Shown: in pieces, positions 400-5,687 of the stretch
Layout of the letters: each line of letters starts with the position of its first letter
Position numbering within the stretch: position 1 is the stretch's first letter
Source of the DNA: a virus
DNA: 21,987 bases
Direction: 5' to 3' (one strand)
Virus record (IMG/VR): IMGVR_UViG_3300037485_001308
Span: 1 to 21,987 of that record
The notes under the pieces: generated by a model
The model's database searches: none
Seen by the model: the letters and a program-made list of their open reading frames with translations, nothing else
Told to the model about the DNA's origin: nothing
Translations under genes and position numbers: made by a program

Positions 400-819
400 T
401 GGTGGAGGTGCGGGGACTCGAACCCCGGTCCAGCTTACCCTGTCAGATAAGGACTACACGTTTAGATCAAGGTTTTTCATACCTTCCGAAATATTTGGTT
501 CCTATTTTGACATCGTTACCAATAACTGTGTAGAGTTCACTTTTATTACGGTAGACCTCCAAACGAGACCGTTGTTCCTTTTACGGTAGAAACCACACCT
601 TTGTAAAGACTTCTGTTGCTAGGTTATGTGTCCACCGACCCCCCGTTTCCGTAAACCTCTTAGGATACAGTAACTTCAGATTCTCTTACTAATCCAAGAG
701 TTTCCATTTTTGATAAAACGTTGCCGTCTATAAAAGTAAACCAGTTTTTAAGGAGATTAGTTCAGTCCCCACGTGCCCTTGATCCTCAGCCAATACCTGT
801 CAAATCCAAAAACACCCCC
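400..819 (-). ncRNA. ssrA: Transfer-messenger RNA (tmRNA)
   Basis: tmRNA rescues stalled ribosomes by acting as an alanyl-tRNA and then as a short mRNA encoding a peptide tag. The 5' acceptor strand GGGGGTG (819-813) pairs with CACCTCC (410-404), followed by A and an encoded CCA (402-400). The third pair is G-U, the alanyl-tRNA synthetase identity element. The 5' end continues TTTTTGGATTTGACAGG, matching the conserved tmRNA start. The T arm CGGGG-TTCGAGT-CCCCG lies at 427-411. GATCAAGG (784-777) pairs with CCTTGATC (472-465), a long-range helix like H2. TCTACCGTAA occurs twice (590-581 and 555-546), probably in duplicated pseudoknots. Length is 420 nt. Phage tmRNAs are known but uncommon. The assignment is very secure; the tag frame is discussed separately. 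Confidence 0.93.
660..725 (-). other. tmRNA tag-peptide reading frame, 21 codons, no ALAA end
   Basis: The resume codon is probably GGC at 725-723, preceded by TAGAC, which resembles the TAGTC before the resume codon in E. coli tmRNA. The frame reads GNVLSKMETL, then G and L, then VRESEVTVS and a TAA stop (662-660): 21 residues after the tRNA-borne alanine. Starting with Gly fits Bacteroidota tags. The end TVS does not match the ALAA or LAA degron recognised by ClpXP. The alternative frame one base over (GCA start) gives ATFYQKWKLLD, also without ALAA. Which frame is used is an inference from position. Confidence 0.6.
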
Positions 820-838
820 ATATTTCAAATAACTATTG

Positions 839-869
839 TAAAGATAGTATATTTCTTTCTATAATCCAA
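839..869 (-). promoter_or_regulatory. Flavobacterial-type promoter of the tmRNA
   Basis: On the minus strand TTG (869-867) is followed after 20 bases by TATCTTTA (846-839), a 7 of 8 match to TAnnTTTG. Transcription would begin roughly 12 bases before the mature tmRNA 5' end, consistent with RNase P trimming. Confidence 0.5.
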
Positions 870-884: not shown

Positions 885-2018
885 ATGAAAAAAAGACTTC
901 TTATTGAGGATGAGGCTAAAGAATTAGACGATTTTCAAAAACTTTTATTGTTAAACAAAAAAAGAATATCACCTGAGGATGTTGTATTTGTTAATGAAAA
1001 TGGGGTTGAACCTGATGAGATAGAGATTGATTCTAAAGGTATGTACTTTAACTTTGATGGTCTTGAAGATTTTCTAAAGTTCTTTTTTCCTGACACATAC
1101 GGTGATGGTGCTTATGAACAATATGAGGCATCATATCTTGAATCAATGTATAACACTCGTTGGGATTTTGGTTTTTCGGATAAATCTTATGAAGAATGGA
1201 AAGAGGGTTATGTGATAGGGGATTTATGTAGTGATAGTATGTCTGTATTGTATGATGTTGTTAAACTTGTTTCACCTAATCTTACCAGTTGTTTTATTAA
1301 AGATAATTATGAGAGATACTCATTTAAAGATGATGATTGTCAAATTAAAATATGTGATGTTCTTGATTCACTACCTAAGATATCTGACGACATACAATGG
1401 ATATGGGCTGATGCGAAACAAGAATCAACTGAGGATGTCGCGTCTGACTACATTAAAGGCATTTACTGTGATGGATTGAAACAATTTGGTTTTGAGAATT
1501 TCTCAAATAGATTGGATTCTTGTTTTAGGACTTATTTTATAAGTTGGGGTAGTTTGGCAATGATGTTCATTAATAACGGTGAGTTTGATGGTAATTTACT
1601 TGAAACAATGAATACTTACGTTGAAAGAAATTTTAGGAACCATACTCCTGAATATTATGAGATTGAGTATAACGTTATGGATTACGAAAAATTCACTGAA
1701 TATTTTTGTCCTAGAGTAACCAAAAAGTTAGAGGACTTGAGGGAAGTCATTATTGAGGAGTATAATCCTAAATATTTAAAGGTTTTAAACCAACTAATTG
1801 ACATGGGTGGGTTTGACAAGTTTTTACCAATGAAAGCATTTAATGGTGAATATGAGATTAGATTTAACTCAGTTGACCAAGACACCCTAAAAGTTTCATT
1901 TGGAGTTAGAAAGAAAGGTCAATGGGATGGTTTAAAAACAGGTAAAGCACCGATTAAGGATGTTATAAACTTTATTAACCAACCAGGTTTATTTAAACCT
2001 GATGAATATAGGGGTTAG
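885..2018 (+). CDS. Hypothetical protein, 377 aa
   Basis: I recognise no family. The protein is acidic and rich in aromatic residues (many Tyr, Phe and Trp), with no signal peptide, membrane segment or nucleotide-binding motif that I can see. It begins MKKRLLIEDEAKELDDF. It is the only large plus-strand gene in the left accessory part, is preceded by a TATTTATA box, and its stop overlaps the stop of the convergent peptidase gene by 4 bases. Codon use matches the phage neighbours. The start at 885 is the first ATG after the box and gives the full frame. It is a real gene by length, but its role is unknown. Confidence 0.85.
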   Translation: MKKRLLIEDEAKELDDFQKLLLLNKKRISPEDVVFVNENGVEPDEIEIDSKGMYFNFDGLEDFLKFFFPDTYGDGAYEQYEASYLESMYNTRWDFGFSDKSYEEWKEGYVIGDLCSDSMSVLYDVVKLVSPNLTSCFIKDNYERYSFKDDDCQIKICDVLDSLPKISDDIQWIWADAKQESTEDVASDYIKGIYCDGLKQFGFENFSNRLDSCFRTYFISWGSLAMMFINNGEFDGNLLETMNTYVERNFRNHTPEYYEIEYNVMDYEKFTEYFCPRVTKKLEDLREVIIEEYNPKYLKVLNQLIDMGGFDKFLPMKAFNGEYEIRFNSVDQDTLKVSFGVRKKGQWDGLKTGKAPIKDVINFINQPGLFKPDEYRG

Positions 2019-3052
2019 TTAGATCCGTAAAATCTTTCGTGTAAAATCTCGTAAAGTTTAAGACAATCATCATTATCAATGAACAGACCGGCACCATCGT
2101 AGATGTCTGAAATCATAATACCATCTTCTTCCTCAAAGATATCCAAAGAATCCAATGAATGTAGTTTATCAACCTCATACTCAACAACGTTAACATCCTC
2201 ATGGTTATTAAATGTTTGAAATCCCTGAGGTTTGTATTCAAACTCATATTTCTTTAACCCAAGATCCTTAACCAAGTTCTTACCTACCTCAATTGCTCTA
2301 ACAACATCATCAATACAGATAAGTTCATTTGCTGTGTGCATGTTGTAATAACCACAAGAGATGTTGATACAAGAAAAGTCTGACTTTTGTTTGATCATCA
2401 TAATGTCAGTATATGGATGTGATTGTACCATCATCTCGTTTTTAAACGATTTGGTGATTGATCTAAGTGCGGTGTGAAAGAACTCACCATCTTTATCAAA
2501 TAATACGGTTCCAAAACAACTATAAGAGATGAGGTGGTCACCTGGTGCATCGTATTGAGTACAATAACCAACATCTTTAAGGAAATCTTCATTTACCTTT
2601 TTTGATCCGTGACAACCTGTTTCTTCTGACACGAAGAAAGCGACCTTAACCTTATCTAATTGATTAAGTAATTCTAAACAGATATAGATACCGCATTTAT
2701 CGTCACCACCGATACCTGTTGGTTTATCGTCTTTGGTGTATGCCTTTAAACATAATGATTGTTCTGAACCAAAATCTTTTCCAAAAGTGTAAGGACGAAG
2801 AAGGTGTTCCTCCTTAACGATAATTTCGTCAACAAGTTCATGTACCGTATCTGTGTGGGAAATAAACATTGGGTAGAACTCACCTTCATCTAAAGTTCCT
2901 TTTGTTACATAGATATTATTGTGTTCATCACAATTAAGTGTAACACCGTCCATCTTGCCAATTGTTGACATGATATACTCAACCATCTTACTTTCTTTGT
3001 AAGTTTTGGTTGGGACTGATAGTAACTCTTTAAATTTATTTAGATTCATCAT
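2015..3052 (-). CDS. Clan MH metallopeptidase, M20/M42/PepT-like aminopeptidase
   Basis: A zinc exopeptidase of about 345 residues that would trim free peptides in the cytoplasm. The metal ligands of the co-catalytic fold are visible, numbering from the ATG at 3052: HTDTVH (H66, D68), GGDDKCGI (around D117), SEETG (general-base E143 and ligand E144), an Asp in YDAPGDH (about 168), and a late His in YYNMHTANE (H239). The fold matches peptidase T, M20 and M42 relatives; the exact family is not decided. The open frame extends to a TTG at 3067, but ATG at 3052 or 3049 is more likely because the conserved region begins NLNKFKELLSVPT. It lies 46 bases after the ClpC-like gene on the same strand with no terminator between, so it is probably co-transcribed and could recycle peptides released by Clp proteolysis. 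Confidence 0.85.
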   Translation of the reverse strand: MMNLNKFKELLSVPTKTYKESKMVEYIMSTIGKMDGVTLNCDEHNNIYVTKGTLDEGEFYPMFISHTDTVHELVDEIIVKEEHLLRPYTFGKDFGSEQSLCLKAYTKDDKPTGIGGDDKCGIYICLELLNQLDKVKVAFFVSEETGCHGSKKVNEDFLKDVGYCTQYDAPGDHLISYSCFGTVLFDKDGEFFHTALRSITKSFKNEMMVQSHPYTDIMMIKQKSDFSCINISCGYYNMHTANELICIDDVVRAIEVGKNLVKDLGLKKYEFEYKPQGFQTFNNHEDVNVVEYEVDKLHSLDSLDIFEEEDGIMISDIYDGAGLFIDNDDCLKLYEILHERFYGSN

Positions 3053-3098
3053 ACATTGTTTCCACAAAGATATTGTAATTAACTCTTATTAAAAAATT

Positions 3099-5156
3099 TT
3101 AGTCCTTCTTTTTTCTACCTCTTTTAGGTTTTTCCTCAAGAACCTCATCAACTTTATCGTTAATTACTACATTCTCATCAACAACCGTTAGATTATAGTT
3201 AACCCCCTCTTTAATTTCGGACATTAAAATCTTCTCAGAAATTAAATCCTCAATCTTATCTTGGATTGCTCTTTTGATTGGTCTTGCTCCGAATGTTTCA
3301 TCAAACCCAACTTTGGAGATATAATCAATTACTGATTGATCGTAAGTAAAGTTGTATTTTTTACCTTCAACACGTTTTAACAATCTATCAATTTCCAACT
3401 TGGTAATAACATCAATATGTTTTTTCTCAAGTGAGTTGAATACGACAACATCATCAATACGATTTAAGAACTCAGGTGCGAAGAACTTACTAAGTTCTTT
3501 CTTAAGGATTGCTCGTTTTTGTTCTTCCTGAACCACATCACTTGAATTGTTAGTTTTGAATCCAACACCAGTTCCGAAGTCTTGTAATTTCTTAACACCA
3601 ATGTTAGATGTCATGATGATCAAACAATTCTTAAAGTTAATCTTTCTACCTAATGCGTCGGTGATATGACCATCATCTAAAAGTTGTAATAATGTTGAGA
3701 AAATGTCTTTGTGTGCTTTCTCAATTTCATCAAACAATACAACTGAGTAAGGTTTGTTTTTAACTTGTTCCGTTAATTGTCCGCCATCATCGTGACCAAC
3801 GTATCCTGGAGGAGAACCGATCAATCTTGAGATTGTGTGTTTCTCTTGGTATTCGGACATATCTACACGGATAAGGTTATCGGGACTACCAAAGATTTCT
3901 TTTGCCAATTGTTTTGCCAAGAATGTTTTACCCACACCTGTTGACCCCAAGAAGATGAATGATCCGATTGGTTTGTTTGGATCTTTAATCCCAATTCTAT
4001 TTCTACGGATAGCCTTGGTGATTTTTAATACCGCTTCTTCTTGACCAATTACGATTGAATTAAGATTTGTGTCCAAATTGATAAGTGAGTTCTTCTCATC
4101 CAAGTTAATGTTGGAGATTGGAATTTTCGTCATGTTTGAAACAACTTCGTAGATCAATTCCTCAGGAATGTTTCTTTTGCTATTCTTAAGTTCTTCATCA
4201 AACTTCTTTTTCTCAATATCCAATCTACTCAATACATTTCGTTCTCTATCACGAAGTTCTGCAGCTTGTTCGTAATTCTGTTGTTTAATTACGGTGATTT
4301 TCTCTAACTTAATGTCTGAAGCCTCTTGTTTAAGTTTCTCAATAACCTCAGGAAGTTTAATATCAATCTGCATTCTTGCTCCAACCTCATCTAAGATATC
4401 AAAAGCTTTATCTGGAAACTCACGATCTGTGATGTAACGATCAGCTAACTCAACGAATGTCCAAAGTGTTTCATCACTATACTTAACCTTGTGATGGTCT
4501 TCGTATTTCTCCTTACTTTGTTGAAGGATTTCAAATGTCTCCTCTTTTGTTGACGCGTCAACGATAACTTTTTGGAATCTTCTCTCTAACGCACCATCTT
4601 TCTCAAAGTTAGTTCTATACTCATCCAAAGTAGTTGCACCAATACATTGAATCTCACCACGTGATAACGCCGGTTTAAAGATGTTTGAAGCATCTAACGA
4701 ACCTGAACTATTACCCGCACCAACTATGGTGTGAATCTCATCAATAAATAAGATTATGTTTGGTGCCGCTTGAAGTTCCTCAATAATAACCTTCATTCTT
4801 TCTTCAAACTGACCACGATATTTTGTACCAGCAACAATTGAGTTCATATCTAAGGACACAATTCTTTTATCCGCCAAATTCTTAGGACATTCTCCATTAT
4901 GGATCATCATTGCCAATCCCTCAACAATTGCTGTTTTACCACAACCTGGTTCACCGATAATGATTGGGTTATTTTTCTTTCTACGAGACAAAATCTGCGC
5001 AATCCTAAAGATTTCATTTTGTCTTCCAATAACAGGGTCAAGTTTACCTTCTTCGGCCAACTTATTTAAGTCCTTACTAAAGTTATCAAGTACTGGTGTT
5101 CCACCATCTGATTTTTTCTTTCCTTTATCCCCTCCGTCTTCTGCAAATTCTAACAT
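3099..5156 (-). CDS. clpC: ClpC-like AAA+ unfoldase lacking the N-domain
   Basis: A two-ring-domain Clp/Hsp100 ATPase of 685 residues that would unfold proteins and feed them to ClpP. D1 has Walker A GEPGCGKT (68-75), Walker B IILFIDE (134-140) and an ERRF arginine-finger region (191-194). A short middle domain with a UVR-like stretch KQQNYEQAAELRD (291-303) follows. D2 has Walker A GSTGVGKT (404-411), Walker B VVLFDE (472-477), LNRID and sensor 2 GARPIKR. The loop GTGVGFKT holds VGF at 531-533, equivalent to the ClpP-contact loop of ClpC, so this is not the disaggregase ClpB. Family members are usually 810-850 residues; here the N-terminal repeat domain that binds adaptors and substrates is missing, replaced by about 20 charged residues. 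The end is a basic Lys-Arg tail. It is divergent from the UVR-motif gene and upstream of the peptidase. No ClpP gene is in the window, so host ClpP is the likely partner. Confidence 0.93.
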   Translation of the reverse strand: MLEFAEDGGDKGKKKSDGGTPVLDNFSKDLNKLAEEGKLDPVIGRQNEIFRIAQILSRRKKNNPIIIGEPGCGKTAIVEGLAMMIHNGECPKNLADKRIVSLDMNSIVAGTKYRGQFEERMKVIIEELQAAPNIILFIDEIHTIVGAGNSSGSLDASNIFKPALSRGEIQCIGATTLDEYRTNFEKDGALERRFQKVIVDASTKEETFEILQQSKEKYEDHHKVKYSDETLWTFVELADRYITDREFPDKAFDILDEVGARMQIDIKLPEVIEKLKQEASDIKLEKITVIKQQNYEQAAELRDRERNVLSRLDIEKKKFDEELKNSKRNIPEELIYEVVSNMTKIPISNINLDEKNSLINLDTNLNSIVIGQEEAVLKITKAIRRNRIGIKDPNKPIGSFIFLGSTGVGKTFLAKQLAKEIFGSPDNLIRVDMSEYQEKHTISRLIGSPPGYVGHDDGGQLTEQVKNKPYSVVLFDEIEKAHKDIFSTLLQLLDDGHITDALGRKINFKNCLIIMTSNIGVKKLQDFGTGVGFKTNNSSDVVQEEQKRAILKKELSKFFAPEFLNRIDDVVVFNSLEKKHIDVITKLEIDRLLKRVEGKKYNFTYDQSVIDYISKVGFDETFGARPIKRAIQDKIEDLISEKILMSEIKEGVNYNLTVVDENVVINDKVDEVLEEKPKRGRKKKD

Positions 5157-5324: not shown

Positions 5325-5687
5325 ATGATTGATTGGAGAGAATTCAATAGAATGATGGATGAAATGTTTAGCTCCCCATTTAATAACACAGGATGGGATA
5401 AAAAATCTTATAAATCACCAGATGGTAGAATGTCGTATACCGTTATGAGTAAAGGATTTGAGAATGAACCTAAGATGGATGAGGTTGGGTTTCTAAAACA
5501 TAAATTAGAGAAGTGTGTTGAATTACAGAATTTTGAGGAAGCCGTAGAATTAAGAGATAAGATCAAAAATTTAGAGGAAAACAAAGAAAAGATTTCAGAG
5601 TTAAGAACTAAGTTAGATGAATGTGTGAAAAACCAAGATTATGAAAAGGCGATAGAGTATCGTGATAAAATAAGGGCTCTCAAATAA
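5325..5687 (+). CDS. Small protein with two UVR motifs, McsA-like in part
   Basis: A 120-residue protein. Its C-terminal two thirds is an internal duplication of the UVR motif: residues 56-84 contain LEKCVELQNFEEAVELRDKI and residues 91-119 contain LDECVKNQDYEKAIEYRDKI. UVR motifs occur in UvrB, UvrC, the ClpC middle domain and the ClpC-system protein McsA, where they mediate pairing of helical hairpins. The N-terminal 50 residues (WREFNRMMDEMF...) show no zinc-binding Cys pairs, so it is not a full McsA. The ClpC-like protein encoded divergently next door has the related stretch NYEQAAELRD in its middle domain. A role as adaptor or activator of that unfoldase is an inference from motif and position. 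A terminator with a UUCG loop follows directly. Confidence 0.85.
   Translation: MIDWREFNRMMDEMFSSPFNNTGWDKKSYKSPDGRMSYTVMSKGFENEPKMDEVGFLKHKLEKCVELQNFEEAVELRDKIKNLEENKEKISELRTKLDECVKNQDYEKAIEYRDKIRALK

Follow-up and report, generated by a model that had tools for sequence, protein, structure and literature searches.

A phage-specific class of non-LAA tmRNA tags encoded near a ClpC-type unfoldase in T4-like phages

The DNA analysed here (the window) is a 21,987-base contig of a large virus, probably of Bacteroidota bacteria, with T4-like genes for terminase, portal, protease and major head protein, and it carries an intact tmRNA gene whose tag does not end in the LAA or MAA of bacterial ssrA tags. 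Comparison with related phages establishes, at the level of sequence, the reading frame of the tag, its membership of a non-LAA class and a conserved block in which the tmRNA lies close to a gene for a ClpC-type unfoldase. We infer that the tmRNA is active, that the tag leads to degradation and that ClpC is its reader, which suggests that the phage redirects the fate of the proteins released from rescued ribosomes. Phage tmRNAs are already known: they have been described for phage G and mycobacteriophages (PMC4131195), for 402 of 18,146 phage genomes (PMC9004378) and, together with SmpB, for huge phages (PMC7162821). Proposals for why some phages carry them include upkeep of the host machinery and degradation of host proteins (PMC9004378). 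What is new is the clade-wide class of non-LAA, 21-residue tags linked to ClpC, of which no description was found in the open-access literature. A phage-only tag that is conserved over many diverged phages, with a linked unfoldase, makes the role of a phage tmRNA testable.

The tmRNA gene and its tag frame

The tmRNA (ssrA) gene lies at 400–819 on the minus strand and matches the complete Rfam model RF00023 (positions 1–374) at 98.9 bits (E = 7e-38; the curated cut-off is 47 bits). It is a one-piece gene with complete tRNA-like and mRNA-like domains, an acceptor stem (GGGGGUG/CACCUCC) containing the G3-U pair, a T arm and an encoded CCA. An earlier note, made from the letters of the window, had taken these features as those of a genuine tmRNA, and the covariance search bears this out. 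Relatives were gathered from IMG/VR by a 5'-end pattern and by ClpC homology, yielding 84 distinct tag regions. When 20 relatives were aligned and given a consensus fold, compensatory changes were seen at 31 of its 43 pairs, and all 20 have the G3-U pair that marks alanine identity, as do 36 of 37 full-length genes counted separately; judged by this covariation, the phage tmRNA is thus maintained and not decayed.

The tag frame and its stop codon occupy 660–725 on the minus strand, exactly the span assigned to them in the earlier note. The 21 codons and stop (GGC AAC GUU UUA UCA AAA AUG GAA ACU CUU GGA UUA GUA AGA GAA UCU GAA GUU ACU GUA UCC UAA) specify GNVLSKMETLGLVRESEVTVS, and it is comparison across the family that fixes this frame. 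Position -4 is A and position -5 is T or C in all 84 distinct tag regions, neither base having been imposed, which matches the known upstream determinant of the E. coli tmRNA, where AUAG or AUAA is favoured before the resume codon (PMC4236655). Among near neighbours, synonymous changes account for 53% of all changes in the tag frame vs 11% and 16% in the other two, and in several relatives ARAGORN calls the same 21-residue tag. The frame ending in ESEVTVS had been preferred in the earlier note, and it is the right one. The alternative +1 frame (ATFYQKWKLLD) is not conserved, since 34 of 86 distinct windows have a stop right behind its third codon; the third frame likewise shows no conservation across relatives.

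The distinct family peptides comprise 51 of 21 residues and five, from one subgroup, of 22 residues; conservation across them is strongest at G1, K6, G11, L12, V18 and A21. In one locus (L059) the resume codon is GCA and the tag, read by hand, is ATFAKMATLGLTREAVVVGA, with 20 residues. Fixed length, coding constraint and the C-terminal Ala argue, from these alignments, for the tag being used.

ARAGORN makes no tmRNA call at 400–819 and misses or shortens most family tags in loci L082–L255 (for example AKLSTLGLIRTEEVTVA), and annotation pipelines will therefore under-report the family. Three loci (L236, L237 and L252) keep the same tag despite an odd T loop (AGTCGGAG vs TTCGANT) and extra sequence inserted close to the acceptor side. 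In L088 (IMGVR_UViG_3300008259_004318; 817–840, minus strand) an internal deletion, which is either decay or an assembly error, has shortened the tag to GNVLDNLSVVGLN and removed most of the pseudoknot region. When cultured relatives were sought, no DNA match to the tmRNA was present among 50,697 phage records, and a tmRNA is also absent from Flavobacterium phage immuto, whose terminase and capsid mark it as distantly related.

Tag ending, hairpin and upstream elements

The contig's own tag has 21 residues and ends in TVS in place of the C-terminal LAA or MAA of a canonical ssrA degron, as the earlier note had claimed, and the departure extends to the whole family. Among the 51 distinct 21-residue tags the last two residues are VA in 37, AA in 5, VS in 2, TA in 2, TI in 2 and EA, KA and GA in one each; Ala is C-terminal in 47, and no family tag ends in LAA or MAA. 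The TVS of the contig is a one-base variant (GCN to TCC) of the usual TVA, which is the ending found in the nearest relative (L002, whose ClpC is 98% identical). The probable host phylum was represented by 198 Bacteroidota genomes, 189 of which contain a tmRNA at or above the cut-off, and 73 chromosomal tags were read. All but one of these (72 of 73) end in LAA or MAA and most have 9–10 residues, so that the phage tag is also unusually long, again as noted earlier; in the tmRNA database, with 97,179 sequences, the commonest tag length is 10 residues (PMC11915505). No sampled Bacteroidota tag resembles the family tag, and none of 84,980 species genomes matched a degenerate DNA pattern made from the 3' half of the tag, so that a host source was not found. 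On this comparison the family tag is thus a phage-specific class and not a host tag. Three unrelated phages from the same scan (L137, L177 and L189) have kept MAA or LAA tags.

With bacterial one-piece tmRNAs and Bacteroidota ssrA the gene shares the G3-U pair of its tRNA-like domain, the conservation of both its 5' and its 3' end and an AUAG-like upstream determinant; many Bacteroidota tags also begin, as in the phage family, with a GGN resume codon. In contrast to Bacteroidota ssrA, the family is phage-encoded, its tags of 21–22 residues end in VA, VS, AA, TA or TI, and there is a hairpin inside the tag frame. The hairpin (CUCUU GGAUUAGU AAGAG; 683–700, minus strand) spans codons 9–15 and overlaps the invariant Gly11-Leu12. 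Its mean minimum free energy (MFE) across the family is -6.7 kcal/mol vs -2.9 for synonymous recodings, with p at or below 0.05 in 39 of 64 cases and p = 0.06 for the contig itself. Because the hairpin lies within the frame, the conservation of Gly11-Leu12 and of the middle of the tag may be partly RNA-driven.

Three conserved elements precede the gene on the minus strand. A Bacteroidota-type -7 promoter element, TATCTTTA (839–846; consensus TAnnTTTG), is accompanied by TTG at 867–869, and TAnnTTTG occurs at -45 to -10 in 54 of 65 relatives, where three would be expected. Just 5' of the tmRNA, at 825–833, lies a GTTATTTGA/GTTCTTTGA word that is possibly an antitermination or processing element; 56 of 65 relatives, where 0.1 would be expected, have the pattern GTT(C/A)(T/A)TTGA about 15 nt ahead of the gene, and the GTTCTTTGA word also precedes 6 of 36 chromosomal Bacteroidota ssrA genes. 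The third element, TATAAATA (872–879), resembles a T4 late promoter, and [TA]ATAAATA is found at -80 to -30 in 48 of 65 relatives (3.7 expected); since its context is palindromic, it may also serve the divergent open reading frame at 885. These motifs support both a Bacteroidota host, itself a probable assignment, and real transcription of the tmRNA.

The ClpC gene and the conserved block

The ClpC-like gene that the earlier note placed near the tmRNA is indeed about 2.3 kb away, at 3099–5156 on the minus strand (phrog_4871, E = 5.5e-235). Its product has two AAA+ modules, a UVR middle motif, both pore loops and a VGF (ClpP-docking) loop; the alignment to a solved ClpC (708 bits) starts at residue 155 of the latter, and the adaptor-binding N-domain is therefore absent. 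This domain is likewise absent from all 81 ClpCs of relatives, in which the pore loops are kept and a [VIM]GF loop is found in 73. Between the unfoldase and the tmRNA lie an M20/M42-like (PepT-like) peptidase (2015–3067, minus strand; Pfam PF05343/PF01546, phrog_4191), which adjoins ClpC in nearly all relatives and is often inverted, and a 377-residue protein (885–2018, plus strand) with homologues in part of the relatives and no match in Pfam, PHROG, NCBIfam or PADLOC. On the other side of ClpC a small McsA-like protein with two UVR motifs is encoded at 5325–5687 on the plus strand (PF02151, E = 2.7e-20). It scores 41.6 bits against the NCBIfam McsA model, the cut-off of which is 210, and has the UVR motifs without the zinc-binding region of McsA; as a guess, it is a candidate ClpC adaptor.

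The gene order TerL-NTase-KTSC-UVR-ClpC-peptidase-tmRNA is kept in loci chosen by ClpC, with ClpC identities of 67–98%. In all 40 large records in which both genes were placed, the tmRNA follows ClpC in the same orientation, 2.0–5.1 kb downstream. When 20 large records were picked by ClpC alone, 16 had a tmRNA over the cut-off, each with the same tag type, and in one further record ClpC sits at the contig edge. The persistence of the linkage across phages with ClpC identity down to 67% lends weight to the idea that ClpC reads the tag. It could also be argued that the linkage is plain synteny, since the block holds unrelated structural genes as well. Tag distances correlate with those of ClpC (Spearman 0.27) no better than with those of the neighbouring NTase (0.29), and specific co-evolution of tag and ClpC was thus not detected. 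Furthermore, the tmRNA of locus L070 is of the ESEVTVA type and the adjacent ClpC belongs to another subgroup, so that, unless this contig is chimeric, tag and ClpC are not strictly matched. In the GDVFANATVGHFVTEGATVAA (ATVAA) subgroup the tmRNA lies away from ClpC, and a single complete ClpC was seen, which has retained its N-domain.

Of 50 records, which are mostly fragments, 15 encode ClpP and one encodes SmpB. A single 309-kb genome (IMGVR_UViG_3300033995_001164; L043, also G038) encodes ClpC (213585), the tmRNA (218102), ClpP (245312) and SmpB (23555), and thereby a nearly complete phage set for trans-translation and degradation. A GOLLD RNA was also seen within a few kb of ClpC in LR745206.1, LR756502.1 and L031 (14932–15339), and in L031 it is near the tmRNA too.

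Possible fates of the tagged proteins

As an explanation of the findings as a whole, a phage tmRNA with a re-targeted degron, whose likeliest reader is the phage ClpC, is the best available, and we give it a little under an even chance. A T4-like Bacteroidota phage would express its own complete tmRNA during infection, and this RNA, charged with alanine, would act with SmpB to free stalled ribosomes. The SmpB is assumed to be the host's in nearly all members, because a phage copy is missing from 49 of 50 records, and rescue of this kind is, on the RNA evidence described above, very likely. Stalled products would receive the phage-specific 21-residue tag instead of the host's 9–10-residue tag ending in LAA or MAA. 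The phage tag would still be a C-terminal degron, though one re-targeted from the ClpX signal that is standard in the host. Its likeliest reader would be the ClpC without N-domain, docked on a ClpP that comes from the host in the present case and from the phage in some relatives; the neighbouring UVR protein would perhaps serve as adaptor, and the PepT-like peptidase would complete the breakdown of the peptides. This ClpC route is plausible. A conserved pair of small hydrophobic C-terminal residues, with Ala in 47 of 51 tags, is what a C-degron should have. We favour re-targeting, with the linked ClpC as its simplest destination, because a -VA end can be a degron and because there is a precedent in Mesoplasma florum, in which a long divergent ssrA tag is read by Lon, replacing the canonical ClpXP route (PMC8138137, PMC9097571). 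The M. florum tag is cellular and its reading by Lon was proven experimentally, whereas ClpC is the putative reader of the phage tag. The family tag could supply an orthogonal degradation tag, as that of M. florum did. In a stronger form of the ClpC reading the pathway would be private to the phage: host ClpXP would ignore the degron, phage ClpC would read it with the UVR adaptor, host or phage ClpP and the peptidase, and the phage would control both the disposal of stalled products and the reuse of their amino acids. This is a tentative extension in which we have rather little confidence.

The earlier note had gone on from the missing LAA to a tag that lacks a degron altogether, which is not established. 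In E. coli, LVA destabilizes GFP about as strongly as LAA, and AAV and ASV do so more weakly (PMC9097571). By this analogy a -VA end, which most relatives have, can in principle be a degron, and the absence of LAA does not imply the absence of a degron. These engineered variants have VA and SV-like ends as in the family, but follow an AANDENYA context. They are also consistent with a functional tmRNA whose tag is read at an altered rate by host proteases, ClpXP or another, with ClpC merely syntenic. This alternative, which is possible though doubtful, draws on the VA or AA end of most tags, the failure to detect co-evolution and the fact that ClpC is common in these phages and set in a structural gene block. 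Against it, all relatives have abandoned LAA and MAA while the host phylum keeps them, and there would be little reason to lose Leu or Met if ClpXP were the reader.

It seems unlikely that rescue is the only function, ribosomes being freed while the fate of the tag is irrelevant or deliberately non-degrading. Growth of lambda-immP22 in E. coli needs mainly ribosome recycling and not proteolysis (PMC2862035), TVS is not among the strong degrons known, ASV acts less strongly than LAA (PMC9097571) and the hairpin in the tag frame is a constraint at the RNA level; a neutral tag, however, would not keep its length, its C-terminal Ala and its synonymous excess. Release without destruction, which the earlier note had envisaged, is thus possible but not the favoured reading, since the tags of nearly all relatives end in two small hydrophobic residues and TVS is a minority variant. 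Far less probable still is a decayed host gene, or a true frame other than the one adopted here (that of KWKLLD or a hidden LAA). The lack of an ARAGORN call and the deletion in L088 would fit such a view, but it is contradicted by the covariation, the G3-U pair, the conserved frame, the invariant A at -4 and the conserved promoter. The earlier note had named a frame ending in LAA and decay seen through relatives as grounds for abandoning its reading; the frame fixed by the family does not end in LAA, and the relatives, with compensatory changes at most pairs, show no decay of the contig's copy.

The departure from LAA is not unique to this family, since the tag of Bacillus phage G, read by ARAGORN as AKLNITNNELQVA, ends in QVA, like the VA of the family. 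Other phage tmRNAs (Bacillus phage G, mycobacteriophages, Melnitz and huge phages) are phage-encoded too, sometimes with SmpB (PMC7162821); their tags are unrelated in sequence to those described here, and no report of their linkage to ClpC was found in the open-access literature. An uncultured 484-kb phage (LR756508.1) has a tmRNA at 92434–92880 with a putative 35-residue tag ending in PAAV and, at 414804–414915, a 112-nt tmRNA-like gene without an mRNA domain that is reminiscent of the DS6A form.
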